Assembly (NCBI RefSeq): GCF_014489635.1
Contig: NZ_CP060828.1
Coordinates: 1,488,001-1,552,000 of the forward strand
Length of the DNA stretch: 64,000 nt
Origin: Streptomyces roseirectus
GTDB taxonomy: Bacteria; Actinomycetota; Actinomycetes; Streptomycetales; Streptomycetaceae
Reading direction: 5' to 3'
How positions within the stretch are numbered: position 1 is the first letter of the stretch; each line of letters opens with the position of its first letter. Position numbers and translations under genes: made by a program. Of the stretch, positions 41,831-55,948 are shown one piece after another. The notes below the pieces were generated by a model. That model was not told the DNA's origin and ran no database searches. It saw only the letters and a list, made by a program, of their open reading frames with translations.

Positions 41831-42991
41831 TCATCTCTTTCGTACGACGACGAAGTCCGCGAGCGCCGTGAACTTCTCCCGCACCTGCTCCGGCATGTCC
41901 ACGTCGCCGAGGGCTTCGATGGCGATGGTGTGCTGGCGGCGGGCCTCCGCCGCGGTCCACTCCCGGCCGCCCGCCTCCTCGATGAGGGCGGCGCGGGCCG
42001 CGAACTCCTCCTCGGAGAAGTTCGCGAAGTCGGTGCTCTTCGCGTCGGCGGCGAGCAGTTCGCCCAGCCGCTCGGAGGCGCTGCCGCCGGCCGCGAGCGC
42101 GGCGACGACGGGCAGCGACTTCTTGCGCTGGCGCAGGTCGGACCAGGTCTGCTTGCCGGTGGCGACGGGGTCGCCCCAGATGCCGAGGAGGTCGTCCACG
42201 GCCTGGAAGGCGAGGCCCAGGTGGTAGCCGTACCTCTCCAGGGTGTCGGCGTCCTTCTCGCCCGCCCCGCCGAGGACGGCCCCGACGGAGGAGGCGCAGG
42301 CGAGCAGCGCGCCGGTCTTGTTGCCCTCCATCTCCAGGCACTCCTCGACGCTGACGCGGTCGCGGTGCTCGTAGGAGATGTCCTGGGCCTGCCCGTCGAT
42401 GAGGGCGCGGGTGGCGGCGGTGAGGCGGCGGGCGGCGCGGCCGGCGCCCGCGGTGCCGGACTCCAGCAGGACCTCGTAGGCGAGCGCGAACAGGGCGTCG
42501 CCGACGAGGATCGCCTGCGCGGGGCCGTGCACCTTCCAGACGGTGTCGCGGTGGCGGCGCTGCTCGTCGCCGTCCATCAGGTCGTCGTGCAGGAGGGAGA
42601 AGTTGTGGACGAGTTCCACGGCGACGGCGCCGGGCACGCCGGTCTTCGGGTCCGCGCCGGCGACCTCGGCGGACAGCACGGCGAGCGCGGGCCGTACGGC
42701 CTTGCCGCCGTCGCCCTCGGTGGGGTTGCCGTGGGCGTCGATCCAGCCGAAGTGGTAGGCCGCGACCGTGTCCATGGGCGGCGCGAGGCGGCCGGCGGCC
42801 TCCCGCAGCACCGGGGTGGCCAGGGTGCGGCCGCGCTCCAGGAGCGCGGCCACGTCGACCGCGGTCCTTCGAGCGTCGGCCGGCGAGGCCGGGGGCACAG
42901 TGGGCACAGTTTCTCCTCTTGTCGCGGTGGGCGCGGTGTCCGCGGTACCGGAGATGCGGGAACCTGCCGAGCTGTGCTGGTGGAGCTTCAC
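41831..42991 (-). CDS. Polyprenyl diphosphate synthase (FPP/GGPP type)
   Basis: 386 residues from a GTG that overlaps the hpnE stop (GTGA) and has GAGGTGAGG upstream; a GTG at 42907 with GAGGAG is an alternative giving 358 residues. The first Asp-rich motif is LLHDDLMDGD, the second FQAVDDLLGIWGD, with KAVRPALAVL as the IPP-binding Lys-Arg. It makes the FPP or a longer diphosphate for HpnCDE. Two residues before the first motif are small, so product length is not obvious. Confidence 0.9.
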   Translation of the reverse strand: MKLHQHSSAGSRISGTADTAPTATRGETVPTVPPASPADARRTAVDVAALLERGRTLATPVLREAAGRLAPPMDTVAAYHFGWIDAHGNPTEGDGGKAVRPALAVLSAEVAGADPKTGVPGAVAVELVHNFSLLHDDLMDGDEQRRHRDTVWKVHGPAQAILVGDALFALAYEVLLESGTAGAGRAARRLTAATRALIDGQAQDISYEHRDRVSVEECLEMEGNKTGALLACASSVGAVLGGAGEKDADTLERYGYHLGLAFQAVDDLLGIWGDPVATGKQTWSDLRQRKKSLPVVAALAAGGSASERLGELLAADAKSTDFANFSEEEFAARAALIEEAGGREWTAAEARRQHTIAIEALGDVDMPEQVREKFTALADFVVVRKR

Positions 42992-44463
42992 CTGGCCTCA
43001 CCTCGCAGGGGCACACCGGTCGCCTGCTGCTGTCGGCCGGGGGCCTGGGGGGCGTCCCCGGGGAAGGCGCGGTGGGCGGCTTCCCCGGCGGCGAAGAGCC
43101 GGGCGGGGCGGGGGCGGCCCAGCGTGCCGAGCGCGGCCTCGGCCGCGTTCGCGCCGCTGCGGACCGCGCTCTCCATGGTCGCGGGCCACCCGGTGGCGGT
43201 CCACGCACCGGCCAGGTAGAGGCCGGGGGCTTTCGTACGCGCGCCGGGGCGCAGCCGGCCGGTGCCGGGCGCGGGCGCGAAGGTCGCGGTCTTCTCACGG
43301 GTGACGAAGAAGTCCCGGACGGCGGCGCCGCGCGCCTTGGGCAGCAGCCGCTCCAGCTCGGGCAGGTAGCGCTCGCGCAGCTCGGCCACGGGCGCGTCGA
43401 TCTCGTCCTGCGCGGCCGACTGGGACAGGGCCAGGTACTGGCCGTCCTTCAGCCCGGAGGCGTCGGTGCGGTCGAAGACCCACTGCACGGGCGTGCCGAG
43501 AGCCGCGAGGAAGGGCACGTTCATGACCGGGCGGTCGTAGATCACGTGCACGTTCAGGATGGGCGCCGTGCCGATCTCCAGCAGGCGTTCCGGTTCGTCG
43601 AGCGCGCCGGCCGGCAGGAGGTCGTACGCCTCGCGCTGGGGGACGGCGAGGACGACCGCGTCGGAATCGATGGCGCGGCCGGGAACTTCCACGGTCCAAC
43701 GGCCGTTGTCCTGGCGGGAGATGGAGGTGACGCGTGTACGGACCTCGATGCTCACGCCCGCGGAGTCGAGCGCCTTGCGGGCCAGCCGGTCGTGCAGTTC
43801 GCCGAGCGGTACGTGCGCCCAGCCGATGTCGGCGGCGCCCGGGTCGGACAGCAGACCGGTCTTGAACACCATCGCGGCGAGCCCCAGCGAGGCATCGCCC
43901 GCGACCGCGTTGAGGGTGGCGACCCCGACCAGGTCCCACAGGGCCTCGACGGCGCGCGCGGACTGACCGTGCGCGGCGAGCCAGGAGCCGAAGTCCTGGT
44001 CGTCCAGCGCCGGATCGGCGAGGTCGAGCCCCTTCAGCGCGAGCGCGGCCCGGCCCACCTTGGCGCGCTCGGCGAGCGAGAGATGCGGGTACGCGGCGAG
44101 GCTGCGCCCGAGGTGCAGCGGCACCGGCAGCGCGTCCCGCCGGAGCCTGCCCAGGCGCCGTCCCTCGGGTTTCGCGACGTCCACGACCGGGACGTCCAGC
44201 CGGGCCTGGAGCGGCGCGAGTGCGGCGGCGCCGACGCGGTCCAGGAACCACCGGTAGGCCGTGCAGCAGCGCAGGTAGACGTGCTGGCCGTTGTCGACGC
44301 TCAACTCGCCGCGCCGGAAGGAGAAGGCGAGGCCGCCCAGGCGCGGGCGGCCTTCGAGGAGGGTGACGCGCAGTCCGGCGTCGGCGAGGCCGAGCGCCGC
44401 GGTGACCCCGGCGAGCCCGCCCCCGACGACCACGGCATGGCGTCCGGTGCTCTCGTCGGTCAT
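42988..44463 (-). CDS. hpnE: Hydroxysqualene dehydroxylase
   Basis: 491 residues. A flavin amine-oxidase-fold protein: the FAD GxGxxG variant is HAVVVGGGLAGVTAALGLADAG..LLEGRPRLGG, and the C-terminal FAD segment is GLYLAGAWTATGWPATMESAVRSG. It removes the hydroxyl of hydroxysqualene (made by HpnC and HpnD) to give squalene, using reduced FAD. The ATG overlaps the stop of the DUF6380-like microprotein. Confidence 0.93.
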   Translation of the reverse strand: MTDESTGRHAVVVGGGLAGVTAALGLADAGLRVTLLEGRPRLGGLAFSFRRGELSVDNGQHVYLRCCTAYRWFLDRVGAAALAPLQARLDVPVVDVAKPEGRRLGRLRRDALPVPLHLGRSLAAYPHLSLAERAKVGRAALALKGLDLADPALDDQDFGSWLAAHGQSARAVEALWDLVGVATLNAVAGDASLGLAAMVFKTGLLSDPGAADIGWAHVPLGELHDRLARKALDSAGVSIEVRTRVTSISRQDNGRWTVEVPGRAIDSDAVVLAVPQREAYDLLPAGALDEPERLLEIGTAPILNVHVIYDRPVMNVPFLAALGTPVQWVFDRTDASGLKDGQYLALSQSAAQDEIDAPVAELRERYLPELERLLPKARGAAVRDFFVTREKTATFAPAPGTGRLRPGARTKAPGLYLAGAWTATGWPATMESAVRSGANAAEAALGTLGRPRPARLFAAGEAAHRAFPGDAPQAPGRQQQATGVPLRGEAR

Positions 44464-44597
44464 CGCGCGTCCTCCTGTGTGTGCCCGCGGTGGTGGATGA
44501 ACTGTGCACCGGGGGCCGTCGCAGTCAGGGACGCCGCGCCGGGCCGGAGGGTTGCCTGTGCGACGCCGGAGGAGTGAGGGGTTGTCAAGAGGGCCAT
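44460..44597 (-). CDS. DUF6380-like microprotein between hpnD and hpnE
   Basis: 45 residues, beginning MALLTTPHSSGVAQ and containing ATLRPGAASLTATAPGAQ and IHHRGHT; the ATLR-GAASLTAT core is what I recall of the Streptomyces DUF6380 family. The ATG overlaps the hpnD stop as ATGA, and its own stop overlaps the hpnE start in the same way, so it bridges the two genes. Preceded by AGGAGG seven bases upstream. It is too short for most gene callers. Function unknown; it may mainly ensure coupling. Confidence 0.8.
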   Translation of the reverse strand: MALLTTPHSSGVAQATLRPGAASLTATAPGAQFIHHRGHTQEDAR

Positions 44598-45556
44598 CAG
44601 GGGTGCCTCCTGACGGTCTGGCGGGAGACGCGGGAGACGGTGCGGGCGTCGAGTCCGGACAGGCCGCGCGCGGCGACGTACGCCTTCTCGCGGCCGGGCA
44701 GGGAGACCCGGCCGCGCAGGACGGCCTCGGGGTCGCGTTCGATGCGGTCGAGCAGGCGCCGGTAGATCCCGGCCATCGCGGCGACGCAGGCCCCGCTGCG
44801 GCGGTCCAGCATCGGCAGCAGCCGGTACCCCTCGGCGAACAGCGCGCGGGCGCGCCGCACCTCGAAGTGGACGAGGCCCGCGAAGTCGGAGCCGGGCGGG
44901 GGCGTCGGGGAGGCGAAGCCGGCGGAGCAGCCGAACTTGGCGAGGTCGTCGGCGGGCAGGTAGGTGCGGCCGTTCTCGGCGTCCTCGCGGACGTCGCGCA
45001 GGATGTTCGTGAGCTGGAGGGCGAGGCCGAGGGTGTCGGCGTACTCGGCGGCCCGCTCCACGCCGCGCGCGCCGGGGCGGGTGCCGAAGACGCCGACGGA
45101 GAGCCGGCCGATGGCGCCGGCGACGCAGCGGCAGTAGGTCCTGAGGTCGTCCCAGGTCTCGTAGGTCTCGCCGCGCAGGTCCATCTCGACGCCGTCGATC
45201 AGCTCGTCGAGGCCGGTCAGCGGGACCGGGAAGGCGCGCGAGGCGTGGGTGAGGGCGACGGCCACGGGGTCGGTGTCGTCCTCGGCGACCTCGCCCTCGC
45301 GGACCCGGGCGAGCAGGGCGCGCGTCTCGGCGAGGCGGGTGCTCTTCGTCGCGGGTTCGAGGTCGCCGTCGCCGATGTCGTCGACGCGCCGGGAGAACGC
45401 GTACAGCGCGGACATCGCGCGTCTCTTGGGTGTGGGCAGCAGCCGGATGCCGTAAGCGAAGTTGCGGGCCTGTGTGCCGGTGACGGCCTCGCAGTAGCTG
45501 TAGGCGGCGAGTACCGGCGCGGACACGTGCGGTGACGGTTCCACGGTCCGGATCAC
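44597..45556 (-). CDS. hpnD: Presqualene diphosphate synthase
   Basis: 319 residues from a GTG with GGAGAGG that overlaps the hpnC stop. A trans-isoprenyl synthase fold: first Asp-rich motif RRVDDIGDGD, second RDVREDAENGRTYLPADD. It condenses two FPP to presqualene diphosphate. With HpnC and HpnE it replaces a squalene synthase. Confidence 0.94.
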   Translation of the reverse strand: MIRTVEPSPHVSAPVLAAYSYCEAVTGTQARNFAYGIRLLPTPKRRAMSALYAFSRRVDDIGDGDLEPATKSTRLAETRALLARVREGEVAEDDTDPVAVALTHASRAFPVPLTGLDELIDGVEMDLRGETYETWDDLRTYCRCVAGAIGRLSVGVFGTRPGARGVERAAEYADTLGLALQLTNILRDVREDAENGRTYLPADDLAKFGCSAGFASPTPPPGSDFAGLVHFEVRRARALFAEGYRLLPMLDRRSGACVAAMAGIYRRLLDRIERDPEAVLRGRVSLPGREKAYVAARGLSGLDARTVSRVSRQTVRRHP

Positions 45557-46443
45557 CCCTCTCCTCGCAGGGTCACGCCCACCTCGCGCAGCAGTCTGAG
45601 CCTGCCGGGCTTGGGCGGGCCGGGAAGTACGTCGTACCGGGCGGCGGAGAGCGCGTGGGCCGCCGCCCGTCCTCCCGCCACGAACCCGGCGAGCAACAGC
45701 CTGAGCCTGCCGGTGACGCTACCCACAAGGGGGGCGCCTTCATTCAGGAGTTGACAGGCGCGTTGCGCTTCGAACGCGACCAGCGCGCGCACGGACGCGC
45801 CCGCGTGCGCCTCGGCGAGGTCCGCCTCGGTGACGTGGAAGCGCTTCATGTCCTCGGCGGGCAGGTAGACGCGGTCGCGGGCCAGGTCCTCGGCCACGTC
45901 CTGGAGGTGTTCGACGATCTGCAGGGCGGTGCAGATCGCGTCGGAGCGGCGGATCCGCTCGGGGGTCGCGGTGCCGGTGACGGCGAGGACGAGCCGGCCG
46001 ACGGGGTTCGCGGACAGCTCGCAGTAGGCGAGGAGGTCGTCGTAGGTCTCGTAGCGGCTGACGAGCTGGTCCTGGCGGTTGGCGGCGATCAGGCCGAGGA
46101 ACGGCTCGGGGGTCAGGGCGCGGCGGCGGACCGTGGGCCGGAGGTTCAGCAGCAGGGGGTGGCGCGGGGTGCCGTCGAAGACGCGGCGCAGGTCGGCCTC
46201 GAAGGCGTCGAGCATCAGGAGCCGGTCGTCCGCGTCGGTGTCGGGGACGCCCAGGTGGCGGGCGTCGGCGCCGCCGGGGGCGAGGTCGCCGTCGCCGATG
46301 TCGTCGACGAGACGGGCGAAGCCGTAGATCGCCATGAGGTCGTCGCGCCAGGCGCGGGGGAGGAAGAAGGGGGCGACGGGGAAGTTCTCGTCGGCCGCTT
46401 TGTCGAGGGTGCCACGGTCGGTCCTGGGAGTTTCCGTAGCCAT
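45553..46443 (-). CDS. hpnC: Hydroxysqualene synthase
   Basis: 296 residues from ATG, with GGGAG upstream. The same fold as HpnD: VDDIGDGDL and LQDVAEDLARDRVYLPAED. It converts presqualene diphosphate to hydroxysqualene. First gene of the hopanoid operon; its 300-base leader holds promoter-like elements. Confidence 0.94.
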   Translation of the reverse strand: MATETPRTDRGTLDKAADENFPVAPFFLPRAWRDDLMAIYGFARLVDDIGDGDLAPGGADARHLGVPDTDADDRLLMLDAFEADLRRVFDGTPRHPLLLNLRPTVRRRALTPEPFLGLIAANRQDQLVSRYETYDDLLAYCELSANPVGRLVLAVTGTATPERIRRSDAICTALQIVEHLQDVAEDLARDRVYLPAEDMKRFHVTEADLAEAHAGASVRALVAFEAQRACQLLNEGAPLVGSVTGRLRLLLAGFVAGGRAAAHALSAARYDVLPGPPKPGRLRLLREVGVTLRGEG

Positions 46444-46459
46444 TGCCGTCACATCTCCC

Positions 46460-46658
46460 GTTCTACACTGCCGACCCAATACACACTATTTCGGACACGC
46501 CGCCCGGACCCCCGCGCGGCGGTGTCCCAGCTGAGGTCGTCCGCGCACGTTATCGCCCCACTTGCCGCGATTCGAGACCGGTACAGCTTACGTTCTACAG
46601 CGCACGCTCGTTCGTCGGGGTCTCCCGCAGATCACAACAACACACCGATTGGTGTCAA
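46460..46658 (-). promoter_or_regulatory. Promoter region of the hopanoid operon
   Basis: On the minus strand TTGACA (46658-46653, a perfect -35) and TGATCT (46634-46629) are spaced 18 bases. Further down, TGTAGAAC occurs twice, at 46599-46592 and 46467-46460, each a potential -10; the second lies 16 bases before the hpnC ATG. A leader of roughly 180 bases from the distal promoter would result. No protein-coding gene is seen in it. Confidence 0.5.
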
Positions 46659-46702
46659 GATTCCTGCGCCCCGGGCGAGTTGACATTTCTTTTGCATACG
46701 GA

Positions 46703-46732
46703 GGGCCCCACCGGAAGGTTCCGGCGGGGCCC
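46703..46732 (-). terminator. Terminator after the TagH-type ATPase gene
   Basis: GGGCCCCACCGGAA and TTCCGGCGGGGCCC form a 14-base stem with one mismatch and a two-base loop, 13 bases after the ABC ATPase stop. It separates the exporter operon from the hopanoid promoter. Confidence 0.8.
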
Positions 46733-46745
46733 TTCGGCGCACGGG

Positions 46746-47528
46746 CTATTTGCCCGTGAACTTCTCGTACTCCTTGATGACCGCGTCGGTCGGACCGTCC
46801 ATCCGCAGCTCACCGCGCTCCAGCCACAGGACCCGGTCGCAGGTGTCGCGGATCGACTTGTTGCTGTGGCTGACGAGGAACACCGTGCCCGCCTGCTTGC
46901 GCAGTTCGCGGATGCGTTCCTCGGAGCGGACCTGGAACTTGCGGTCGCCGGTCGCCAGCGCCTCGTCGATCATCAGGACGTCGTGGTCCTTCGCGGCGGC
47001 GATGGAGAAGCGCAGGCGCGCCGCCATACCGGAGGAATAGGTGCGCATCGGCAGGGAGATGAAGTCGCCCTTCTCGTTGATCCCCGAGAAGTCGACGATC
47101 TCCTGGTAGCGCTCCTTGATCTGCTCCCGGGACATCCCCATCGCGAGCCCGCCGAGGACGACGTTGCGCTCCCCGGTGAGGTCGTTCATCAGGGCCGCGT
47201 TGACGCCCAGCAGCGAGGGCTGGCCGTCGGTGTAGACCTTGCCGCTCTCCGGCGGCAGCAGCCCGGCGATCGCCCGCAGCAGCGTCGACTTGCCCGAGCC
47301 GTTGGTGCCGATCAGCCCGATCGCCTCGCCCCGGTAGGCGGTGAACGACACCCCGCGCACGGCGTGCACCTTGCGCACCGCGCGCTCCTCACCGCCCTTG
47401 CGGCGCTTGACGATCCGGCTCAGCGCGGCCGTCGCGCTGCCCTTGCCGCCCTTGGCCCCGTTGACGCGGTAGACGATGTGGACGTCCTGCGCGATGACGG
47501 TCGGCACCCTCGCACCCTGCTCAGCCAC
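46746..47528 (-). CDS. Polysaccharide/teichoic-acid-type ABC exporter ATPase
   Basis: 260 residues from a GTG with GGAGGAGAGG upstream; it overlaps the permease stop by eight bases. Walker A GLIGTNGSGKST, signature YSSGMAARL, Walker B VLMIDEALATGDRKF, H-loop LVSHSNKS. YSSGM and DEALATGD are diagnostic for the TagH/Wzt group exporting undecaprenyl- or lipid-linked glycans. No C-terminal carbohydrate-binding domain is present. It ends the CDP-alcohol/GT2 operon. Confidence 0.92.
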   Translation of the reverse strand: MAEQGARVPTVIAQDVHIVYRVNGAKGGKGSATAALSRIVKRRKGGEERAVRKVHAVRGVSFTAYRGEAIGLIGTNGSGKSTLLRAIAGLLPPESGKVYTDGQPSLLGVNAALMNDLTGERNVVLGGLAMGMSREQIKERYQEIVDFSGINEKGDFISLPMRTYSSGMAARLRFSIAAAKDHDVLMIDEALATGDRKFQVRSEERIRELRKQAGTVFLVSHSNKSIRDTCDRVLWLERGELRMDGPTDAVIKEYEKFTGK

Positions 47529-48450
47529 GGCCGTACCTCTCCTCCGCCTGCCAGAAGTACACGAAACCGCCGACGGCGAACAGGACGGCCCAGCCGCCCG
47601 CGACCATCCAGACGTGGTCGGGCAGGTTGGCCGACCCGTAGTCCTCGATCAGGGCGAAGCGCATGAGGTCCATGTAGACGGCCGTCGGGTTCCACTGGAG
47701 CACCGTGGAGACCCAGCCCGGCTTCTCCGCGAGGTACACCGGGATGGAGAACATCACGCCGGACGCGTACATCCACGTCCGCAGCACGAACGGCATGAGC
47801 TGCGCGAGGTCGGGGGTCTTGGCGCCCGCGCGCGCGAAGATCAGGGCGAGGCCGGTGTTGAAGAGGAACTGGAGCGCCAGCACCGGCACGATCAGCGCCC
47901 ACGACAGGTCGGGGTAGCTGCCGAACGCCATCACGACGAGGAACAGCACCAGCATCGACCACAGCAGCTGCTGGAGCTGCTGGAGCGCGAAGGAGACCGG
48001 CAGGGACGCGCGCGGGAAGTGCAGCGCGCGCACCAGGCCCAGGTTGCCGGAGATCGCCCGCACGCCCGACATGACCGAGCTCTGCGTGAAGGTGAAGACG
48101 AAGATGCCCGTGACGAGGAACGGGATGTAGACGTCCTTGGGCATGCCCTTCCCGGCGTTCAGGATCAGCCCGAAGATCAGGAAGTACACGACCGCGTTCA
48201 GCAGCGGGGTGGCCACCTGCCAGAGCTGGCCGAGCTTCGCCTGGCTGTACTGGGCGGCCAGCTTGGCCGAGGAGAAGGCCAGGATGAAGTGGCGCCGGCC
48301 CCACAGCTGGCGGACGTACGCGCGCAGCGACGGGCGGGCCCCGCTGACGGCCAGCCCGTACTTCGCGGCGAGCTGTTCGGGCGTGAGCCCGTCGTCCGGT
48401 GACGGGGGCTCACTCGTCATGACGCCGCCTTCATGGGTTCTCTCACTCAC
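47521..48450 (-). CDS. Polysaccharide/teichoic-acid-type ABC exporter permease
   Basis: 309 residues from a GTG; an ATG at 48420 would drop ten residues. About six transmembrane segments in an ABC-2 fold, e.g. LLNAVVYFLIFGLILNAG, FLVTGIFVFTFTQSSV, LLWSMLVLFLVVMAFG, ALIVPVLALQFLFNTGLAL and WMVAGGWAVLFAVGGFVYFW, with SARPSLRAYVRQLWGRRHFIL as the N-terminal amphipathic region. It is the TagG/Wzm partner of the ATPase, probably carrying the product of the upstream synthetic genes across the membrane. Confidence 0.9.
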   Translation of the reverse strand: MSERTHEGGVMTSEPPSPDDGLTPEQLAAKYGLAVSGARPSLRAYVRQLWGRRHFILAFSSAKLAAQYSQAKLGQLWQVATPLLNAVVYFLIFGLILNAGKGMPKDVYIPFLVTGIFVFTFTQSSVMSGVRAISGNLGLVRALHFPRASLPVSFALQQLQQLLWSMLVLFLVVMAFGSYPDLSWALIVPVLALQFLFNTGLALIFARAGAKTPDLAQLMPFVLRTWMYASGVMFSIPVYLAEKPGWVSTVLQWNPTAVYMDLMRFALIEDYGSANLPDHVWMVAGGWAVLFAVGGFVYFWQAEERYGRG

Positions 48451-48546
48451 AAGCGGAAACTTTCGTCTCGGGATGCGGGGCCTCGGCGGGCCGGGCACGA
48501 GCCGGGGGCCGCGGGGCGGCCCGGGGTGACCTCGGGGACGAGCTTT

Positions 48547-49428
48547 TCAGATGATCGGCGGACGGCCCAGCCGGGTCAGCCGCCACACCGTACGCCACCG
48601 CATCGGCCTGCGCGGGCCGCAGTCGGTTCTCCAGCCCTCCCCGAACCCGCCGAACCACGCCTTCAGCGCGGGTATGGAGGGCCGGCGCAGCAGGGTCAGC
48701 GCCAGCCACACCCCGAGGTAGACGGGGACCAGCGGGGCGGGCAGGTTGCGGCGGGCGAGCCAGACGCGGTTGCGGGCCACCATGCGGTGGTAGACCGCGT
48801 GCCGCGAGGGCGCGGTCGTCGGGTGGAACAGCACCAGGTCGGACCGGTAGTCGATCAGCCAGCCCGCGTCCAGGGCCCGCCACGCCAGGTCGGTCTCCTC
48901 GTGCGCGTAGAAGAACGCGTCCGGCAGGGTGCCGACCTCCGCGAAGACCCGGGTGCGGACGGCGTTGGCGCCGCCGAGGAACGTGGTGACCCGCGAGGAG
49001 CGCATCGGGTCGGCGGCCCGCAGCCTCGGCACGTGCCGGCGCTGGGTGACACCGGTGTCCGGGTCGGCGATGCGGAAGCTGACGATGCCCAGGCGCGCGT
49101 CGTCCGCGAACGCTCTGCGGCACAGCTCGGCGGTGTCGTGCTCGGGCAGCAGGCCGTCGTCGTCGAGGAACAGCAGTATGTCGACGTCCCGGCCGCTCGG
49201 CCCGAACGCCTCGATGCCGACGTTGCGCCCGCCCGGGATGCCCAGGTTCTCCGGCAGTTCGACCGTGCGCACGCCCACGGGGACGTCCGGGACGGGCGCG
49301 CCGTTGCCGACCACGACGACCTCGACCGGGTCGCCGTCCTGCTTGGCGACCGAGTCGAGCAGCGCGCGCAGTTCCTCGGGGCGGTTGCCCATCGTGATGA
49401 CGACGGCGCCGACTTTCAGCGCGTTCAC
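48547..49428 (-). CDS. GT2-family glycosyltransferase
   Basis: 293 residues from a GTG that overlaps the CDP-alcohol transferase stop (GTGA). GT-A fold: GAVVITMGNRPEELRALLDSVAKQ, the DXD-type LLFLDDDGLLP, GGRNVGIEAFG, and the acceptor-side FYAHEETDLAWRALDAGW (ED motif) of rhamnosyl/GT2 enzymes. A hydrophobic stretch near LVPVYLGVWLALTLL may anchor it. It presumably adds a sugar to the polyol-phosphate product before export. Confidence 0.88.
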   Translation of the reverse strand: MNALKVGAVVITMGNRPEELRALLDSVAKQDGDPVEVVVVGNGAPVPDVPVGVRTVELPENLGIPGGRNVGIEAFGPSGRDVDILLFLDDDGLLPEHDTAELCRRAFADDARLGIVSFRIADPDTGVTQRRHVPRLRAADPMRSSRVTTFLGGANAVRTRVFAEVGTLPDAFFYAHEETDLAWRALDAGWLIDYRSDLVLFHPTTAPSRHAVYHRMVARNRVWLARRNLPAPLVPVYLGVWLALTLLRRPSIPALKAWFGGFGEGWRTDCGPRRPMRWRTVWRLTRLGRPPII

Positions 49429-50204
49429 TTCAGCCTGCTGGAGACCAGCACCGACACCAGGTGCAGCAGCGTCTGCAGCAGCGCGATCCCGGCCAGCACG
49501 GCGGTGCCGAGGCGGGTCCAGAACAGGTCGCCGTGGTAGTGGTCGGCGACCGCGAGGACCAGGATCAGCAGCGACGCCTCGATGCCGAGGATCAGCCGGT
49601 GGAACTTGAGCGCGGCGGCGGCCCGGCGCGCGAGCGCCATCCCGGAGGAGCGCGGCTCGGACGCCGCCTCCTTGACCGGCGCCATCCCGTTCTGGTGCCG
49701 GGCCACACCGACCAGGTCCGTCTCCGCCTTGATCAGGATCGCGCCGAGCGCGGCGAGCGTCCCGAGGAACGCCCACAGCCAGTCGATCCGCCCGGTGCCG
49801 AACACGTCGGCGGCGCGCAGACCCAGCCCGACGAGGACGGCCGCGTCGGTCAGGTAGGCGCCGACCCGGTCCAGGTAGACCCCGGCCAGCGAGTACTGCT
49901 TGCGCCAGCGTGCGATCTCCCCGTCGACGCAGTCCAGCAGCAGGTAGAGCTGGACGGCGACGACGCCGAGGACGGCGCCCCAGATGCCGGGCACCAGCAG
50001 CGCGGGCGCGGCCAGGACGCCGCAGACGGTCATCAGGTACGTCAACTGGTTCGGCGTGACGCGCGTGTTGACCAGGTACCGGTCGACCCTGAGGGACACC
50101 TCGCGCATGTAGAGGCGGCCCATCCAGTGCTCGCCGCTGCGCCGGTCCTTGACCCCGGCGGGGTGCACGACGGGCCGGAGTTCAGCTACCGATGGCCTTG
50201 ACAT
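49425..50204 (-). CDS. CDP-alcohol phosphatidyltransferase-family protein with variant motif
   Basis: 259 residues with several transmembrane helices. The signature DCVDGEIAR-x8-GVYLDRVGA keeps the first three Asp, but the fourth, catalytic-base Asp of DxxDGxxARx8GxxxDxxxD is Ala. A following ...YLTD supplies an Asp four residues later. N-terminal half contains VTPNQLTYLMTVCGVLAAPALL. It overlaps the dehydrogenase stop by 23 bases. Activity is likely altered: either another acidic residue takes over or it works on an unusual alcohol. Confidence 0.88.
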   Translation of the reverse strand: MSRPSVAELRPVVHPAGVKDRRSGEHWMGRLYMREVSLRVDRYLVNTRVTPNQLTYLMTVCGVLAAPALLVPGIWGAVLGVVAVQLYLLLDCVDGEIARWRKQYSLAGVYLDRVGAYLTDAAVLVGLGLRAADVFGTGRIDWLWAFLGTLAALGAILIKAETDLVGVARHQNGMAPVKEAASEPRSSGMALARRAAAALKFHRLILGIEASLLILVLAVADHYHGDLFWTRLGTAVLAGIALLQTLLHLVSVLVSSRLK

Positions 50205-51243
50205 AGTCGGCGTAGACGTCCTTGATCTGGTCGGTCTTGAGGTCGAGGTGTTCGAGGATCGTGTAGCGGCCGGGGCGGGTCTGCGGGGCGAACTCGACGG
50301 CCTGGACGAACTCGTCCACGCTGAAGCCGATCTCCTCCGGCAGCACCGGCAGCCCGTGCCGGCGCAGGACCTCCGCCATGTACGCGGACTCCTCGTGGGC
50401 GCCCCGCAGGTACATGGCGAACGCGGCACCGAGTCCGCACTGTTCGCCGTGGGCGGCGGCGCGCTTGGGGAACAGCAGGTCGAACGCGTGGTTGATCTCG
50501 TGGCAGGCGCCGGAGGAGGGCCGGGAGTCGCCGGAGACGGACATCGCGATCCCGGTGAGGACCAACGCCTCGGCGAGGACCTGGAGGAACCCGTCGTCGC
50601 CGACGCCGCCGGGGTGGCGCAGCACCGCCTCGCCCGCCTGGCGGGCCATGGCGGCGGCGAGGCCGTCGATCTTCTCGCCGTTGACCCGGTTCGACAGCTC
50701 CCAGTCGGCGACCGCCGAGATGTTGGAGATGGCGTCGCCGATGCCGGACCGCACGAAGCGGACGGGGGCCTCGCGGACCAGTTCCAGGTCGATCACGACG
50801 GCGATCGGGTTCGGCACGCCGTAGGAGCCGCGGCCCGCGTCGTTGTCGAGGGTCGCGACCGGTGAACACAGGCCGTCGTGCGCGAGGTTGGTGGCGACGG
50901 CCACCAGCGGCAGCCCGACCCGCGCGGCGGCGAACTTCGCGCAGTCGATGATCTTCCCGCCGCCGAGCCCGACGACGGCGTCGTAGTGGCCGGCCTTTAT
51001 GGCGCCGGCGAGCTGGATCGCGTCGTCGAGGGTGCCGCCCCCGACCTCGTACCAGCTCGCGCCCGGCAGCAGCGGCAGCAGCCGCTCCTTGAGGCGGGCC
51101 CCGGAGCCGGGGCTCACCGCGACGGCCAGCTTTCCCGAGTGCGAGATGCGCTCGTCGGCGAGGACCCCGGCCAGGTCGTCGAGGGCACCCGGGCGGATGT
51201 CCACGACGACCGGCGACGGGATCAGCCGGGTCAGTACTGGCAT
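50182..51243 (-). CDS. Glycerol-1-phosphate dehydrogenase-like iron/zinc ADH
   Basis: 353 residues. Dehydroquinate-synthase-like fold. VVGLGGGKIIDCAKFAAARVGLPLVAVATNLAHDGLCSPVA is the NAD-binding and HDG region of sn-glycerol-1-phosphate dehydrogenase (AraM/EgsA) proteins; metal ligands are expected in SGIGDAISN, CHEINHAFDLL and AAHGEQCG. The family reduces dihydroxyacetone phosphate to glycerol-1-phosphate, the archaeal lipid stereoisomer. Between a nucleotidyltransferase and a CDP-alcohol transferase, it probably supplies the polyol phosphate. The substrate is inferred from family and context. Confidence 0.85.
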   Translation of the reverse strand: MPVLTRLIPSPVVVDIRPGALDDLAGVLADERISHSGKLAVAVSPGSGARLKERLLPLLPGASWYEVGGGTLDDAIQLAGAIKAGHYDAVVGLGGGKIIDCAKFAAARVGLPLVAVATNLAHDGLCSPVATLDNDAGRGSYGVPNPIAVVIDLELVREAPVRFVRSGIGDAISNISAVADWELSNRVNGEKIDGLAAAMARQAGEAVLRHPGGVGDDGFLQVLAEALVLTGIAMSVSGDSRPSSGACHEINHAFDLLFPKRAAAHGEQCGLGAAFAMYLRGAHEESAYMAEVLRRHGLPVLPEEIGFSVDEFVQAVEFAPQTRPGRYTILEHLDLKTDQIKDVYADYVKAIGS

Positions 51244-51968
51244 GCGATCTCCCGCCCCTTGGCCAGGTCGTCGTGGTTGTCGATCTCGACCCACTTGACG
51301 TCGCCGATGGGCGCCACGTCGATCTGGAAGCCCCGGTTGACCAGCTCCTGGTAGCCGTGCTCGTAGAACTGCTGCGGGTCGGTCTCCCAGACGGTCTTGA
51401 GCGCGTCGGCCAGCGCGTCGGTGGCCTCGCCCTCGATGAGGGTGACACCGATGTACTCGCCCGTCGCCTCGGCGGGGTCCATCAGCTTGGTGATCTTGCT
51501 GACGCCCTTCTCGGGGTCGGCGACGACCTTCATCTCCTCGTCGGCCAGGGACTTGACCGTGTCGAGGGCGAGGATGATCCGCTTGCCGTCGCCGCGCGCG
51601 GCGAGCAGCGTCCTCTCGACGGAGACCGGGTGGACGGTGTCGCCGTTGGCGAGGATCACGCCGTCCTTGAGGGCGTCACGGCCGCACCACAGGGAGTAGG
51701 CGTTGTTCCACTCCTCGGCCTTGTCGTTGTCGATGAGCGTGAGCGTCAGGCCGTACTTGGCCTCCAGGGCGGCCTTGCGCTCGTAGACGGCCTCCTTGCG
51801 GTACCCGACGATGATCGCGACCTCGGTGAGGCCGATCTCGGCGAAGTTGCCGAGGGTCAGGTCGAGGACGGTCGTGTCGCCGTCCACCGGCACCAGGGCC
51901 TTGGGCAGGGTGTCGGTGTAGGGGCGCAGTCTCCGGCCTGCGCCGGCCGCCAGCACGAGGCCGATCAT
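51231..51968 (-). CDS. Nucleotidyltransferase (phosphocholine/sugar-phosphate cytidylyltransferase type)
   Basis: 245 residues. GT-A-like NTP transferase: MIGLVLAAGAGRRLRPYTDTLPKALVPVDG, later NDKAEEWNNAYSLWCGRDAL and GVILANGDTVHPVSV (metal Asp), ending VKWVEIDNHDDLAKGR. This order matches LicC-like cytidylyltransferases. It would activate the polyol phosphate to a CDP derivative. The ATG overlaps the DUF5941 gene stop (ATGA). Confidence 0.88.
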   Translation of the reverse strand: MIGLVLAAGAGRRLRPYTDTLPKALVPVDGDTTVLDLTLGNFAEIGLTEVAIIVGYRKEAVYERKAALEAKYGLTLTLIDNDKAEEWNNAYSLWCGRDALKDGVILANGDTVHPVSVERTLLAARGDGKRIILALDTVKSLADEEMKVVADPEKGVSKITKLMDPAEATGEYIGVTLIEGEATDALADALKTVWETDPQQFYEHGYQELVNRGFQIDVAPIGDVKWVEIDNHDDLAKGREIACQY

Positions 51969-53767
51969 GCGGATTCTCCTTCGTCGTGTACGGCTGGGGC
52001 GCCGGCCTTGTGTGCGGCGACCCAGAAGCGGATGCTCTCGACGAGCACCAGCAGGGCGACGGCCACGGCGAGCGCCGTGAGCGCGAGCGTGAACGGCTCC
52101 CCGGTGAGCAGGGCGGCGAGGACGCAGGCGAGCAGCGTCCGTCCCTCCTGCCCCCCGGTGGCGCGCACCAGCCAGGCCGGCGGCGCTCCGGCGCCACCGC
52201 GGATGCGGTACACCGTGTCGTAGTGATGGTAGGCGACGGCGGCCACCAGCCCGAAAGCCGCCGGAAGCGCTCCGTTCACCTCCGCGCGCGCGGCGAGGAG
52301 GAGGACGGTGGCGTACTCGGCGGTACGGAAGAGGGGGACGATCAGCCAGTCGAGGGGGCCGGTGAGGGGCCGGGCGGTGACGGTCGCCGAGGCGAGGACG
52401 TGGAGGGCGGCGAACAGGACGGCCCAGCCGCTGCCGTACCCCGCGAGGGCGACGGCGAGCAGCAGCGGTGCCGCGGTGCCGGCGACCGTGCCGACGCGGG
52501 CGAGGGTGCCGTGGTCGCGGACGCCGATCCGGCGTGCCACCGGGTGCAGCGCCTCGACGAGCGCGCCGTTGTCCGCCATGTCCGCCAGCGCCCGCGCGGA
52601 GCGCTCCGTGTTGGGCGTACGGCGGCGCAGCGAGCGCAGGACGCGGCCGGCGGTGGTGTAGAGGGCCGCGAGGCCGCAGCCGATCAGCAGGGCGTAGAAG
52701 GTGATCCGGGGGGTGGCGGCGGCCGTCAGGACCGCGATCATCGCCCAGCGTTCGCCGATCGGCAGGATGATCATGCGGCGCACCCAGACGGACAGGCCCA
52801 CCTTCTTGACGGGGCCGGTCGCGGGCGGGGCGACGTCGTCCTCGGCCTCGTGGTAGGCGAAGTCGACCATGTGCCGCACGGTCTGCACCGCCATCGCGGC
52901 CAGCGCGAGCCCCCACACGTCGTCGCCGCCGCGCGCCGCTCCGAGGGCGAGGCCGGCGTAGTACGCGTACTCCTTGGCCCGGTCGAAGGTCGCGTCGAGC
53001 CAGGCGCCGAGCGTCGAGTACTTGAGGGCGTAGCGGGCGAGCTGGCCGTCCGTGCAGTCCAGGACGAACGACACGATCAGCAAGGCGCCGGCCGCGACGA
53101 ACCCGGTGCGGGTGCCGGTCGCCGCGCAGCCGGCCGCGATCAGGGCCGTCAGCAGGGAGGCCGTGGTGACCTGGTTGGGGGTCAGGCCCCGGCGGGCGCA
53201 CCAGCGGGCCAGGTAGCGGGAGTAGGGGCTGATGAAGAAGGTCGTGAAGAACCCGTCGCCCGACTTCACGGACGACCGGAGGCGGACGGCCTCCTCGTCG
53301 ACGGCGGCGACGGCCTCCCGCGCCTCGCTCCTGGCCTGCGGATCCCGCGGGACGACGGCGACGAGGCTGCCGAGCGCGGGCCTGTGCACGGCGGCGCCCT
53401 CGGCGTCGAGGGCCGTGACGACCCGGTCGGCCAGGCTGTCGACGGCGGTGGCGGTACGGCCGCCCGCCGACGTCTCGCGCGCCAGCGCCCGCGTCAGCGT
53501 GGCCCGTGCGTCGGCGCGGGCCACCACGACGCCGGGGACGGCGGCCAGCGGGAAGCGGGGGTCGGTCAGGGCGAGGCGCAGCGCGTGGAGGTGGCCCACG
53601 AAGCGGGCGTCCACCAGCGCGACGCGCTCCTCGCAGGGGGTCCGCGCCATCGCGCGTTCCGCCTCGGCGGCGCCGGCGACCGTCCTGACCTCGAACCCCA
53701 GCGCTCTCAGGTCCGCCTCGATCGAGGATCCGGGGACCGGAGAGCCGGCGAGGATGGCGGTCGACAA
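51965..53767 (-). CDS. CDP-alcohol transferase fused to a DUF5941 domain
   Basis: 600 residues from a TTG with GGGAGTGAG upstream; no ATG or GTG lies close by. Residues 1-150 form a Rossmann-like domain with a degenerate nucleotidyltransferase feel; 160-390 carry the CDP-OH_P domain with an intact signature (DCTDGQLARYALKYSTLGAWLDATFD) and a preceding GDGFFTTFFISPYSRYLARW; 400-600 is membrane-rich DUF5941 (PLTGPLDWLIVPLFRTAEYATVLLL, AYHHYDTVYRIRGG). The layout recalls inositol-phosphate cytidylyltransferase/DIPP synthase fusions. First gene of the operon. Confidence 0.88.
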   Translation of the reverse strand: MSTAILAGSPVPGSSIEADLRALGFEVRTVAGAAEAERAMARTPCEERVALVDARFVGHLHALRLALTDPRFPLAAVPGVVVARADARATLTRALARETSAGGRTATAVDSLADRVVTALDAEGAAVHRPALGSLVAVVPRDPQARSEAREAVAAVDEEAVRLRSSVKSGDGFFTTFFISPYSRYLARWCARRGLTPNQVTTASLLTALIAAGCAATGTRTGFVAAGALLIVSFVLDCTDGQLARYALKYSTLGAWLDATFDRAKEYAYYAGLALGAARGGDDVWGLALAAMAVQTVRHMVDFAYHEAEDDVAPPATGPVKKVGLSVWVRRMIILPIGERWAMIAVLTAAATPRITFYALLIGCGLAALYTTAGRVLRSLRRRTPNTERSARALADMADNGALVEALHPVARRIGVRDHGTLARVGTVAGTAAPLLLAVALAGYGSGWAVLFAALHVLASATVTARPLTGPLDWLIVPLFRTAEYATVLLLAARAEVNGALPAAFGLVAAVAYHHYDTVYRIRGGAGAPPAWLVRATGGQEGRTLLACVLAALLTGEPFTLALTALAVAVALLVLVESIRFWVAAHKAGAPAVHDEGESA

Positions 53768-53823
53768 CCGAACTCACTCCCTGAGTGCCGGCGCGCCCCG
53801 GCCACGTACGACGTTTTCCCGAT

Positions 53824-53904
53824 GCCCCGCTCCCGAAAGCGGGGCGGGCGGCATGACGGCAGAGGCTATCGGATAGCGGAAGGCTCCCGTTCACTGCCCG
53901 TTCA
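53824..53904 (-). promoter_or_regulatory. Regulatory region of the CDP-alcohol operon
   Basis: Three features stand upstream of the TTG start. A hairpin GCCCCGC/GCGGGGC (53824-53845) lies in the leader. A perfect palindrome GCTATCGGATAGC sits at 53865-53877. Two copies of CCCGTTCA lie at 53886-53893 and 53897-53904, spaced 11 bases (TGAACGGG on the minus strand), one helical turn. GATAGC in the palindrome could be the -10. Confidence 0.4.
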
Positions 53905-54058
53905 GCCGTGCTCAAGACCGTCCACACCGGGCCTGGGCGAGATCATCATGGGTGATCAAGGGGGTTGCGGACAAACCGCGGGCGGGGGTCGTCACCGGGG
54001 GTGAGGACGCGGTGCGGCGGGCGTGAGCGCGGGGCACGGACACGGCGGGCCGCGACTG

Positions 54059-54109
54059 TCTGACCTGCGGTTCGTTTGCGCAGGTCAGAGCACATGACAA
54101 CGGTGTTCA
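54059..54109 (+). promoter_or_regulatory. zitB upstream region: inverted repeat and candidate Zur box
   Basis: TCTGACCTGC and GCAGGTCAGA (54059-54068 and 54080-54089) are perfect ten-base arms around an 11-base spacer. Next comes TGACAACGGTGTTCA (54095-54109), a partial palindrome of the TGA-N9-TCA form seen in Zur boxes. TTGCCG (54118) and TAGTTC (54139) could be the promoter hexamers with a short 15-base spacer. Zur is known to activate zitB in Streptomyces coelicolor; the box is assigned here only by form. Confidence 0.45.
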
Positions 54110-54179
54110 GTGCCGCGTTGCCGGATACCCCCCACCCGTAGTTCACTGTGGGCCGGACGAGTGGCGGGAGGACGGTTTC

Positions 54180-55115
54180 ATGGGGGCTGGACACGATCAC
54201 GGGCACAGCCACGCGCCGCAGGGCGGGACGGCCGCGGCGGCGTACGCCGGGCGGCTGCGGATCGCGCTGGGGATCACGCTCGGTGTGATGGTCGTGGAGA
54301 TCGTCGGCGGGATCGCGGCGGACTCGCTGGCGCTGGTCGCGGACGCGGCCCACATGGCCACCGACGCCGTGGGCCTCGGGATGGCGCTGCTGGCGATCCG
54401 GTTCGCGGGGCGGCCGGCGAGCACGCACCGGACGTTCGGGCTGGCCCGCGCGGAGATCCTGGCGGCGCTGGCGAACTGCCTGCTGCTGCTCGGGGTCGGC
54501 GGGTACGTGCTGTACGAGGCGGTGTCGCGGTTCTTCACGCCCGCGCCGACCGAGGGCGGGCTGATGATCGTGTTCGGCGCGATCGGCCTGGTCGCGAACA
54601 TGATCTCGCTCACGCTGCTGATGCGGGGCCAGCAGGAGAGCCTGAACGTGCGGGGCGCGTTCCTGGAGGTCGTCGCCGACGCCCTCGGGTCGGTGGCGGT
54701 GCTGGTGTCGGCCGTGGTGATCCTGACGACCGGCTGGCAGGCGGCCGACCCGATCGCCTCGCTGGTCATCGGGCTGATGATCGTGCCGCGGACGGTCAAG
54801 CTGCTGCGCGAGACGCTGGACGTGCTGCTGGAGTCCGCGCCGAAGGACGTCGACATGGCCGAGGTGCGCAGTCACATCCTCGCGCTCGACGGGGTGGAGG
54901 ACGTCCACGACCTGCACGCCTGGACGATCACCTCGGGGCTGCCGGTGCTGTCCGCGCACGTCGTCGTCCGCTCCGACGTGCTCGACGCGGTCGGCCACGA
55001 GAAGCTGCTGCACGATCTGCAGGGGTGTCTCGGGCACCACTTCGACGTGGAGCACTGCACGTTCCAGCTGGAGCCGAGCGGGCACGCGGAGCACGAGGCG
55101 CGGCTCTGCCACTGA
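54180..55115 (+). CDS. zitB: Cation-diffusion-facilitator zinc exporter
   Basis: 311 residues, six transmembrane helices, His-rich start (GHDHGHSHAPQG). Helix 2 has the metal pair in AHMATDAVGL (HxxxD). Helix 5 reads LEVVADALGS, so Glu replaces the His of the usual HxxxD. The C-terminal cytoplasmic metal domain begins after VPRTVKLLRETLDVLLE. It exports zinc or another divalent metal. The name rests on resemblance and on adjacency to idi, as I recall for zitB in S. coelicolor. Confidence 0.85.
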   Translation: MGAGHDHGHSHAPQGGTAAAAYAGRLRIALGITLGVMVVEIVGGIAADSLALVADAAHMATDAVGLGMALLAIRFAGRPASTHRTFGLARAEILAALANCLLLLGVGGYVLYEAVSRFFTPAPTEGGLMIVFGAIGLVANMISLTLLMRGQQESLNVRGAFLEVVADALGSVAVLVSAVVILTTGWQAADPIASLVIGLMIVPRTVKLLRETLDVLLESAPKDVDMAEVRSHILALDGVEDVHDLHAWTITSGLPVLSAHVVVRSDVLDAVGHEKLLHDLQGCLGHHFDVEHCTFQLEPSGHAEHEARLCH

Positions 55116-55354
55116 GGGGTGGCGCGGGGTGCGGGGCTTGTTCGGGTGGTCGGACGATCGGATCATCGGGCAGGTTTGCGACGGGCCACTCGTCCGGGTT
55201 GCTTTGCCGCCCCGGGTCCCGCTCCGGGCGGTTCCGGGGCGTCCGGGGCGGGCAAGATCACCCTTCGGGCCCCGTTCCCGGCACGGCTCGACGTCGGGAG
55301 AGCCGGACGTGTGCGGCAGACTGGGGGGCGCCAGGACCGATGCTAAGGATGGGT

Positions 55355-55948
55355 ATGCCGATCACACCTGCGACCACGACGCACAGTTCACCGAACGGCA
55401 CCGCGGACCCGATTCTGCTCGAACTGGTCGACGAGGACGGCGTCACGATCGGCACCGCCGAGAAGCTGACCGCGCACCAGCCGCCGGGACAGCTGCACCG
55501 CGCGTTCTCGGTGTTCCTCTTCGACGAACAGGGCCGGCTGCTGCTCCAGCAGCGGGCCCTGGGCAAGTACCACTCCCCCGGCGTGTGGTCCAACACGTGC
55601 TGCGGCCACCCCTACCCCGGCGAGGCCCCGTTCGCGGCGGCGGCCCGGCGCACCCACGAGGAGCTGGGCGTCTCGCCGTCGCTGATGGCGCAGGCGGGCA
55701 CGGTCCGCTACAACCACCCGGACCCGGAGTCCGGCCTGGTGGAGCAGGAGTACAACCACCTCTTCGTCGGTCTCGTGCAGTCGCCGCCGCGGCCGGACCC
55801 GGAGGAGGTCGGCGACACGGCCTTCGTGACGGCTGCGGAGCTGGCCGAGCGGCACGCGAAGGATCCGTTCTCCTCCTGGTTCATGACCGTCCTGGACGCC
55901 GCCCGGCCCGCCGTCCGCGAGCTGACGGGCGACATGGCCGGCTGGTGA
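55355..55948 (+). CDS. idi: Isopentenyl-diphosphate delta-isomerase, type 1
   Basis: 197 residues from an ATG with AAGGA upstream; another ATG lies two codons earlier. A NUDIX-fold isomerase: the catalytic Cys is in SNTCCGHPYPGE and the NUDIX helix in APFAAAARRTHEELG; the second catalytic Glu is in VEQEYNHLFVG, TWFM-like tail absent. It interconverts IPP and DMAPP, supporting the isoprenoid supply for the hopanoid genes nearby. The 239-base leader shows no gene. Confidence 0.93.
   Translation: MPITPATTTHSSPNGTADPILLELVDEDGVTIGTAEKLTAHQPPGQLHRAFSVFLFDEQGRLLLQQRALGKYHSPGVWSNTCCGHPYPGEAPFAAAARRTHEELGVSPSLMAQAGTVRYNHPDPESGLVEQEYNHLFVGLVQSPPRPDPEEVGDTAFVTAAELAERHAKDPFSSWFMTVLDAARPAVRELTGDMAGW

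Follow-up and report, generated by a model that had tools for sequence, protein, structure and literature searches.

Seven minus-strand genes (G1 to G7), located at 46746..53767 of a 64,000-nucleotide stretch of Streptomyces roseirectus DNA (the window; contig NZ_CP060828.1, positions 1,488,001 to 1,552,000), appear on balance to be a wall-polymer cassette of the teichoic-acid type that supplies its own activated glycerol phosphate. The block probably constitutes the cytidine diphosphate (CDP)-glycerol branch and a part of the assembly machinery of such a polymer, and the activated glycerol phosphate would probably be of the mirror-image form. The window is contained in a 9.95-Mb single-contig genome, and the genes are as follows.

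G1, 51965..53767, minus strand, TTG start at 53767: membrane protein of 600 residues, with an N-terminal part of about 160 residues, a class I CDP-alcohol phosphotransferase domain and a hydrophobic C-terminal DUF5941 part
G2, 51231..51968, minus strand, 4-base ATGA overlap with G1: LicC/IPCT-type cytidylyltransferase (NTP_transferase)
G3, 50182..51243, minus strand, 13-base overlap with G2: glycerol-1-phosphate dehydrogenase (G1PDH) family (Fe-ADH_2; NCBIfam NF002022, 8.6e-69)
G4, 49425..50204, minus strand, 23-base overlap with G3: second CDP-alcohol phosphotransferase-like protein, without the last aspartate (D4) of the class I signature (CDP-OH_P_transf, 1.8e-8)
G5, 48547..49428, minus strand, GTG start, 4-base GTGA overlap with G4: glycosyltransferase of family GT2 (Glycos_transf_2, 1.5e-10)
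G6, 47521..48450, minus strand, GTG start, 96-base gap after G5: TagG/Wzm-type ABC permease (ABC2_membrane, 1.5e-12; galactan exporter permease, 3e-13)
G7, 46746..47528, minus strand, GTG start, 8-base overlap with G6: TagH/Wzt-type ABC ATPase (ABC_tran, 2.5e-20; TagH PRK13546, 1.5e-54)

The genes, their order, the overlaps and the single gap (126 bases if G6 begins at the alternative ATG 48420) are all as an earlier, sequence-only reading had placed them. Its family names also agree with the Pfam matches of G1 to G7, namely DUF5941 plus CDP-OH_P_transf, NTP_transferase, Fe-ADH_2, CDP-OH_P_transf, Glycos_transf_2, ABC2_membrane and ABC_tran. It had further envisaged that a glycerol-1-phosphate-based envelope product is reduced, activated with cytidine triphosphate (CTP), joined and exported. 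This scheme gains independent support from the genes that surround the block in other families, as well as from co-occurrence with TagF-family polymerases. Of the two products it had offered as alternatives, the teichoic-acid-like polymer is preferred to the phospholipid.

In the proposed pathway, G3 would reduce dihydroxyacetone phosphate to sn-glycerol-1-phosphate, and G2 would couple this to CTP to give CDP-1-glycerol, which has the opposite handedness to the CDP-3-glycerol made by TagD. The donor would feed TagF-family polymerases encoded elsewhere, as co-occurrence and linkage in relatives suggest, as well as the two membrane transferases of the block. G1 would most likely set glycerol phosphate on a lipid-linked acceptor in a TagB-like priming step, while G4 would most likely move an alcohol phosphate to a base-independent acceptor, e.g. 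undecaprenyl phosphate, or use another base. G5 would then glycosylate the product; the G4 and G5 steps are the most speculative. The lipid-linked product would be exported by G6 and G7 and attached by LCP proteins, which are encoded near the block in other families. Both the stereochemistry and the parts assigned to G1, G4 and G5 are predictions.

Conservation of the unit

G4 was searched for in 394 genomes of the class, and gene order was compared in 80 named loci, which are the best 80 of 568 confirmed, ranked by G4-profile similarity among named genome contigs. The 80-locus set shows the architecture of G4 loci and not their frequency; its gene counts rest on homology matches scored by our own bit-score lines, and absences are soft because several of the contigs are short. 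A match to G4 at E ≤ 1e-3 is found in 261 of the 394 genomes, in many of them weakly through other CDP-alcohol transferases, and full-length relatives reach down to E 7.8e-37. In every one of the 40 listed genomes of the same genus, a relative of G4 is found at E ≤ 2.4e-115, and the best-scoring relatives among the matches listed are mostly from Streptomyces.

Among the 80 loci, G2 is found in 65, G3 in 65, G4 in 79, G5 in 64, a TagG-like gene in 51 and a TagH-like gene in 49. G2 and G3 occur together in 65 loci, never one without the other, and G5 is present in 61 of these 65. G2-G3-G4-G5 are all present in 60 loci, and in 60 of 60 they are collinear on the same strand. The conserved unit is real and beyond chance, and the refuting outcome named by the sequence-only reading, a gene set not conserved as a unit, did not arise. 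Among the record titles of these loci are Streptomyces, Kitasatospora, Streptacidiphilus, Nocardiopsis, Nonomuraea, Streptosporangium, Planomonospora, Microtetraspora, Actinomadura, Solirubrobacterales and Thermoleophilia. The public records L105, L134 and L115, titled Bifidobacterium breve (contigs of metagenome-assembled genomes) or Glycomyces fuscus (which falls inside Nocardiopsis), cluster with other lineages on the G4 tree. These look mislabelled or contaminated.

Co-occurrence with TagF-family polymerases

Two overlapping samples were used, one of 148 genomes of the class and one of 246 genomes of the phylum, and pooled counts refer to their union. In the class sample the lines for a strong match were E ≤ 1e-60 for G3, E < 1e-60 for PF04464 (the glycerophosphotransferase domain of the TagF family; counted from the listed best E-values) and E < 1e-30 for TagD (TIGR01518). 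In the phylum sample they were E ≤ 1e-60 for PF04464 and E ≤ 1e-25 for TagD. The class sample contains G3 in 35 genomes, PF04464 in 45 (66 at E ≤ 1e-3) and TagD in nine (52 at E ≤ 1e-3). A strong PF04464 match is found in 32 of the 35 G3-bearing genomes versus 13 of the 113 others (p 1e-18), and a strong G4 match in 31 of the 35 (all except G204, G352, G376 and G383). In the class sample, the G3-bearing genomes and those with strong TagD do not overlap. The phylum sample contains G3 in 13 genomes, PF04464 in 16 and TagD in ten, again with no genome having both G3 and TagD; ten of its 16 PF04464 genomes have G3, four have TagD and two have neither.

When the samples are pooled, the 51 genomes with strong PF04464 divide into 33 with G3, eight with strong TagD, ten with neither and none with both (Fisher p 7e-5). 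By anonymous family codes, the combination of G3 and PF04464 extends over eight families and that of TagD and PF04464 over five, and no family is common to both. In the S. roseirectus genome there are six PF04464 matches (the best at 4e-125) and no TIGR01518 match at E ≤ 1e-3. The mutual exclusion of G3 and TagD among PF04464 genomes, together with this PF04464-positive and TagD-negative genome, suggests that G2-G3 replace TagD. An RTxGISTT-type motif is present in three of the four strong class-sample TagD loci tested (L171-L174 of six fetched), and in both L198 and L199, where TagD adjoins PF04464; the strong match of genome G085 (L174, again L201) fails the pattern. The motif occurs in none of the four weak TIGR01518 matches of four other Streptomyces.

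It is also conceivable, at a modest probability, that the cassette makes only a small CDP-glycerol-derived linkage unit or decoration on another backbone, and that the TagF-family polymerases obtain CDP-glycerol or another CDP-polyol elsewhere. Such an arrangement would agree with the lack of linkage between the block and the listed TagF-family genes of the genome, with the presence of an exporter pair in the block itself, and with G4-GT2 pairs that stand without G2/G3, some of them near TagF-like genes (L058-L060). It agrees poorly with the absence of a TIGR01518 match from the genome and with the zero of 51 PF04464 genomes that have both G3 and strong TagD. It agrees poorly also with loci L181 and L183 (which share the family code f76), in which G2-G3 are accompanied by TagG-TagH, TagF-like and GDPD genes and no G4 is found in the stretch. 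No strong G4 match is found in the genomes of L181 and L183 either, the latter being 80 percent complete. Locus L185, tried as a third case of this kind, was dropped, since its contig ends just past TagH, and in its genome G4 with G1 and a GT2 gene starts another contig (L088).

Several observations weigh against a cassette that supplies CDP-1-glycerol to wall-polymer polymerases. The co-occurrence tests ignore descent, and the TagD-PF04464 combination comes from just five family codes; when G3 is tested against TagD over all genomes of just the class sample, significance is not reached (p 0.12). G3 occurs without PF04464 over threshold in three of the 35 class genomes (two of them incomplete) and in three of the 13 phylum genomes. 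The ten PF04464 genomes with neither G3 nor strong TagD indicate that another donor source exists. The TagD label follows our own E-value line, and no class-sample match reaches the curated cut-off. Weak TIGR01518 matches occur in 21 of the 35 G3-bearing genomes (E 5e-4 to 2.4e-17; at most 66 of 165 bits); these are taken for other proteins of the cytidylyltransferase superfamily, as judged from the four checked. Of the PF04464 matches in the S. roseirectus genome, the five with listed positions are all more than 4.3 Mb distant from the block. G4 is found without G2/G3 in the stretch in 15 of the 80 named loci, and G3 without G4 in four of the 35 genomes, so that the donor of G4 need not be CDP-1-glycerol. 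Two of the assignments fall short of curated lines: G3 scores 232 bits to its best NCBIfam family, the NAD(P)-dependent glycerol-1-phosphate dehydrogenase NF002022 (equivalog cut-off 413), and G7 scores 185 bits to the TagH family (cut-off 320). Lastly, according to titles in the reference list of PMC7831098, the walls of S. coelicolor also carry teichulosonic acid and polydiglycosylphosphate.

Cytidylyltransferase and dehydrogenase

For the wall-polymer cassette, it is proposed that G3 is a dihydroxyacetone phosphate reductase and that G2 is a CTP:sn-glycerol-1-phosphate cytidylyltransferase. CDP-sn-1-glycerol is put forward as their joint product on the basis of the proximity of G3 to G1PDH, the cytidylyltransferase relatives of G2, and the kinship of G1 and G4 to AF2299. 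By profile comparison, G3 scores 217 bits to the archaeal G1PDH 4rgq and 81 bits to the glycerol dehydrogenase 1kq3. Its top solved chain, at 225 bits, is 3ce9, which was deposited as a glycerol dehydrogenase and for which we know of no assay. The sequence-only reading would have been undermined by an enzyme that is a mere glycerol dehydrogenase unrelated to phosphates; the 217 bits, set against the 81 bits of the best relative so labelled other than 3ce9, argue in part against this. The metal ligands, which we take to be one Asp and two His in this family, are present in G3, H248 and H265 being found in 13 of 13 sequences and Asp170 in 12 of 13 (Glu in L054). The SRPxSG...H and HGE segments are retained.

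The three best solved relatives of G2 are LicC 1jyk, 6pd1 and 4jd0 (the last aligned over 4-236). LicC is a phosphocholine cytidylyltransferase, and 6pd1 is presumably a phosphonate cytidylyltransferase. The protein of 4jd0 is an inositol-1-phosphate cytidylyltransferase (PMC12275187). The active-site Arg, Lys and Asp of COG1213-type enzymes are found in G2 as R13, K23 and D110, invariant in 13 of 13 sequences; relative to the R16, K26, D112 numbering of PMC12275187, the Arg-Lys spacing is the same and the Asp is one residue off.

An alternative is that G3 reduces another phosphoketose and G2 activates a non-glycerol polyol phosphate, in the manner of TarJ/TarI for ribitol. COG1213-type cytidylyltransferases with several different substrates have been described, among them CpgD, which gave no product with glycerol-1-phosphate (PMC12275187); the score of G3 below the G1PDH equivalog cut-off points in the same direction. 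This alternative is rendered rather improbable by the preference of the G3 profile for G1PDH over 1kq3, by the retained SRPxSG...H and HGE segments, and by the resemblance of both G1 and G4 to a CDP-glycerol binder.

Neighbourhood of the block

Within the window the block borders hpnCDE. In the named loci, hpnC adjoins the block in 21 of 80, all of which are titled Streptomyces, Kitasatospora or Wenjunlia. A TarI(IspD)-, TagF- or LCP-like gene lies within the fetched stretch in 31 of the 44 G3-bearing loci without hpnC and in none of the 21 loci with hpnC. Pfam names of neighbours, taken from single representatives, include PF04464 glycerophosphotransferase (just 33 bits in L051), LytR_cpsA_psr, TarS linker, Stealth and IspD. 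From the TarI-, TagF- and LCP-like neighbours and the gene content of L181 and L183, it appears that the shared denominator is wall-polymer synthesis and not hopanoids.

That the product is instead a lipid of the membrane, a phospho- or glycolipid in which glycerol-1-phosphate forms the head group or the backbone, seems quite improbable. CDP-alcohol transferases mostly make lipids, and this general role would speak for a lipid product. So would the extra C-terminal hydrophobic stretches of G1, similar to those of lipid-acceptor enzymes (PMC4634129). A TagGH-like exporter and a GT2 gene in the block, and the genes resembling TagF, TarI and LCP that lie near it in other families, speak against it, as does PcrB, for which a search of the genome found no match; an archaeal-type ether lipid is rejected on this last ground.

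A hopanoid-linked function (head group or export) can practically be dismissed: hpnCDE adjoins the block in the window, and hpnC in the 21 loci, but the same block stands away from hpnC in 44 other G3-bearing named loci, often among wall-polymer genes. The hopanoid border is lineage-specific, and the hint at a membrane or envelope role that the sequence-only reading had drawn from it is not supported.

Some loci with G1 and/or G4 and without G2/G3 have a different nucleotidyltransferase close by (L057 12853-15209, L051 2106-4191, L059 15262-15954 and others), accompanied by a Stealth-type protein in L057 and by a TagF-like protein in L051. The CDP-alcohol transferases may work with exchangeable donor modules. 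In another genome of the genus (L192, G403:C1:848000-866000), there is a second copy of G3, with two strong PF04464 matches some 6-8 kb away. Around the block itself, no Rfam family is found at the gathering threshold in 42000-55500, and promoters and terminators in 46300-54300 are no more numerous than in shuffles.

The two CDP-alcohol transferases

The eight residues of the class I signature are described as 'absolutely conserved', with D4 the likely catalytic base; when D4 is changed to Asn, activity is nearly abolished and substrate binding is uncompromised (PMC4634129). G4 departs from this signature, a feature that the sequence-only reading had overlooked.

G4 signature stretch, residues 91-116, 49857..49934, minus strand: D91xxD94GxxA98R99...G108xxxD112xxxA116, Ala in place of D4
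G4 residues 116 and 120, 49857-49859 and 49845-49847 of the window: the D4 position and the fourth residue after it

Among 90 G4-family proteins (89 distinct, some possibly found via a pattern demanding His or Ala at D4), the D4 position is His in 75, Ala in 15 and Asp in none, and the remaining seven positions of the signature show no variation in any of the 90. A set of 38 homologs assembled without regard to the motif has His at D4 in 33 and Ala in five. All 30 fetched same-genus loci have Ala, these being the best-scoring loci only, and other Streptomyces have His. The signature pattern picks out six CDP-alcohol transferases in the S. roseirectus genome, G4 and five others that all have Asp at D4, and misses one further PF01066 match, the seventh. 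On the G4 tree, in which one row (L112) could not be labelled, the distribution of the two residues needs three changes, which are forced by well-supported branches, and most simply His was changed to Ala three times. A lone G4 paralogue away from cassette genes, with 52-54 percent identity to the window G4 and Ala at D4, is present in several Streptomyces (L072-L075, L137, L160, L163).

Residues 116 and 120 are Ala/Asp in 12, Ala/Glu in three, His/Glu in 73 and His/Asp in two of the 90 proteins. Asp120 is possibly a substitute carboxylate; two changes on a tree can yield such a pairing. His26 is invariant across the family. The nearest solved relative of G4 is AF2299 (profile, 5.5e-19). An otherwise invariant site with an exchangeable base suggests an active enzyme that either acts on an acceptor (a phosphate, for example) for which a base at this position is unnecessary, or uses another base. 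A binding-only role of G4 is possible.

G1, in contrast to G4, carries the full eight-residue signature, DCTDGQLAR...GAWLDATFD (DxxDGxxAR...GxxxDxxxD), and in 36 of 36 aligned G1 rows D4 is Asp and the next residue Arg. Its Pfam matches are DUF5941 (2.4e-81) and CDP-OH_P_transf (1.1e-10), and of ten G1 relatives tested, nine give a match to PF19365, one of these matches lying below the cut-off. The best solved relative is again AF2299 (6.8e-18), the pocket of which holds the glycerol of CDP-glycerol and which has an N-terminal cytidylyltransferase-like domain (PMC4634129). When the N-terminal part of G1 is compared by profile with G2, the result (E 0.014, probability 3 percent) is no more than suggestive of a decayed nucleotidyltransferase domain.

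By crude hydropathy, the DUF5941 part contains four hydrophobic stretches. Lipid-acceptor enzymes typically have three or four extra C-terminal helices (PMC4634129), and the guess of a lipid-linked acceptor for G1 is based on the hydrophobic DUF5941 standing in their place. DUF5941 (G1 residues 386-600) was also tried as a decayed second CDP-alcohol transferase domain, a reading that is not claimed: 'DWLIVPLFRTAEY' aligned with 'AWLDATFDRAKEY', but at E 0.05 and a probability of 1 percent. The alignment of DUF5941 is in register with the transferase motif region of G1 itself, not significantly, and DUF5941 may be the decayed copy of a duplicated domain.

Glycosyltransferase and exporter

G5 is weakly akin to MftF and GlfT1 (NCBIfam). 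G6 scores 50 bits to the NCBIfam galactan exporter permease, below the cut-off of 380, and no TagG is found among its matches listed.

Comparison with known systems

The wall teichoic acid pathway of Bacillus (TagD, TagB, TagF, TagGH, LCP) resembles the proposed one in its CDP-glycerol donor, in TagGH-like export, and in the TagF-like and LCP genes near the blocks of relatives. It differs in the source of the donor, which is TagD there and the proposed G1PDH and LicC-type cytidylyltransferase here; the S. roseirectus genome contains the TagF-family polymerase of the Bacillus-type pathway and gives no TagD match at E ≤ 1e-3. To our knowledge, the two CDP-alcohol transferases have no counterpart in Bacillus wall teichoic acid synthesis. 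The Bacillus wall polymer is of sn-glycerol-3-phosphate, which the stereospecific GlpQ liberates from the polymer ends (PMC7086022).

Archaeoglobus AF2299 and IPCT/DIPPS, CDP-alcohol phosphotransferases that use CDP-glycerol or CDP-inositol, are the best solved relatives of G1 and G4 and share the small soluble CDP donor; here G4 is without D4, G1 has DUF5941, and the context is one of bacterial export. The ether-lipid route of Bacillus AraM and archaeal G1PDH has the G3 family in common with the block; here, though, the genome gives no PcrB match, and G3 is joined instead with a cytidylyltransferase and with genes of wall type. The Wzm/Wzt export of mycobacterial galactan, with GlfT1, is weakly akin to G6, G7 and G5, far below equivalog cut-offs, and we know of no CDP-alcohol chemistry in it.

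The product had been called undescribed by the sequence-only reading. This holds for mechanism and product in the literature searched, but the Streptomyces synteny is already in print: a 2026 paper files clusters 14531, 14532 and 14538, consisting of nucleotidyltransferase, CDP-alcohol transferase, GT2, crtB, tagH, tagG and araM, under teichoic acid biosynthesis (PMC13118837). The accessible part of that paper gives no pathway, CDP-1-glycerol, TagD complementarity or D4 loss. Thus, as far as the literature searched goes, the gene set and the teichoic label are already known, and the CDP-1-glycerol proposal, the TagD complementarity and the missing base are new. Apart from the araM label, no work tying G1PDH or CDP-1-glycerol to actinobacterial wall polymers was found in the openly licensed literature, nor was the chirality of Streptomyces glycerophosphate polymers found in the openly licensed literature searched.

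Biological implications

Streptomyces makes glycerophosphate polymers (S. hygroscopicus), and the actinobacterial genomes sequenced by 2011 were without clear LtaS orthologues (PMC3196553); an LtaS homologue was named in Bifidobacterium bifidum in 2025 (PMC12286996). With such polymers, no clear LtaS orthologues as of 2011 and no TagD match in this genome, the question arises where activated glycerol phosphate comes from, and the block offers a concrete candidate. Wall-polymer genes may matter for growth, since tagO could not be deleted in S. coelicolor (PMC7300013).

The chirality predicted for the product contradicts a printed assumption, by which CDP-1-glycerol is likely absent in bacteria (PMC8262930). 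It is tentatively put forward that many actinobacteria make wall glycerophosphate polymers from CDP-sn-1-glycerol, with a chirality opposite to that of Bacillus, and that they use a family of CDP-alcohol transferases that has lost its catalytic base, probably since its acceptor is a phosphate, that of a lipid carrier, rather than an alcohol. Transferases without D4 would show how far this large enzyme family depends on its supposed catalytic base.

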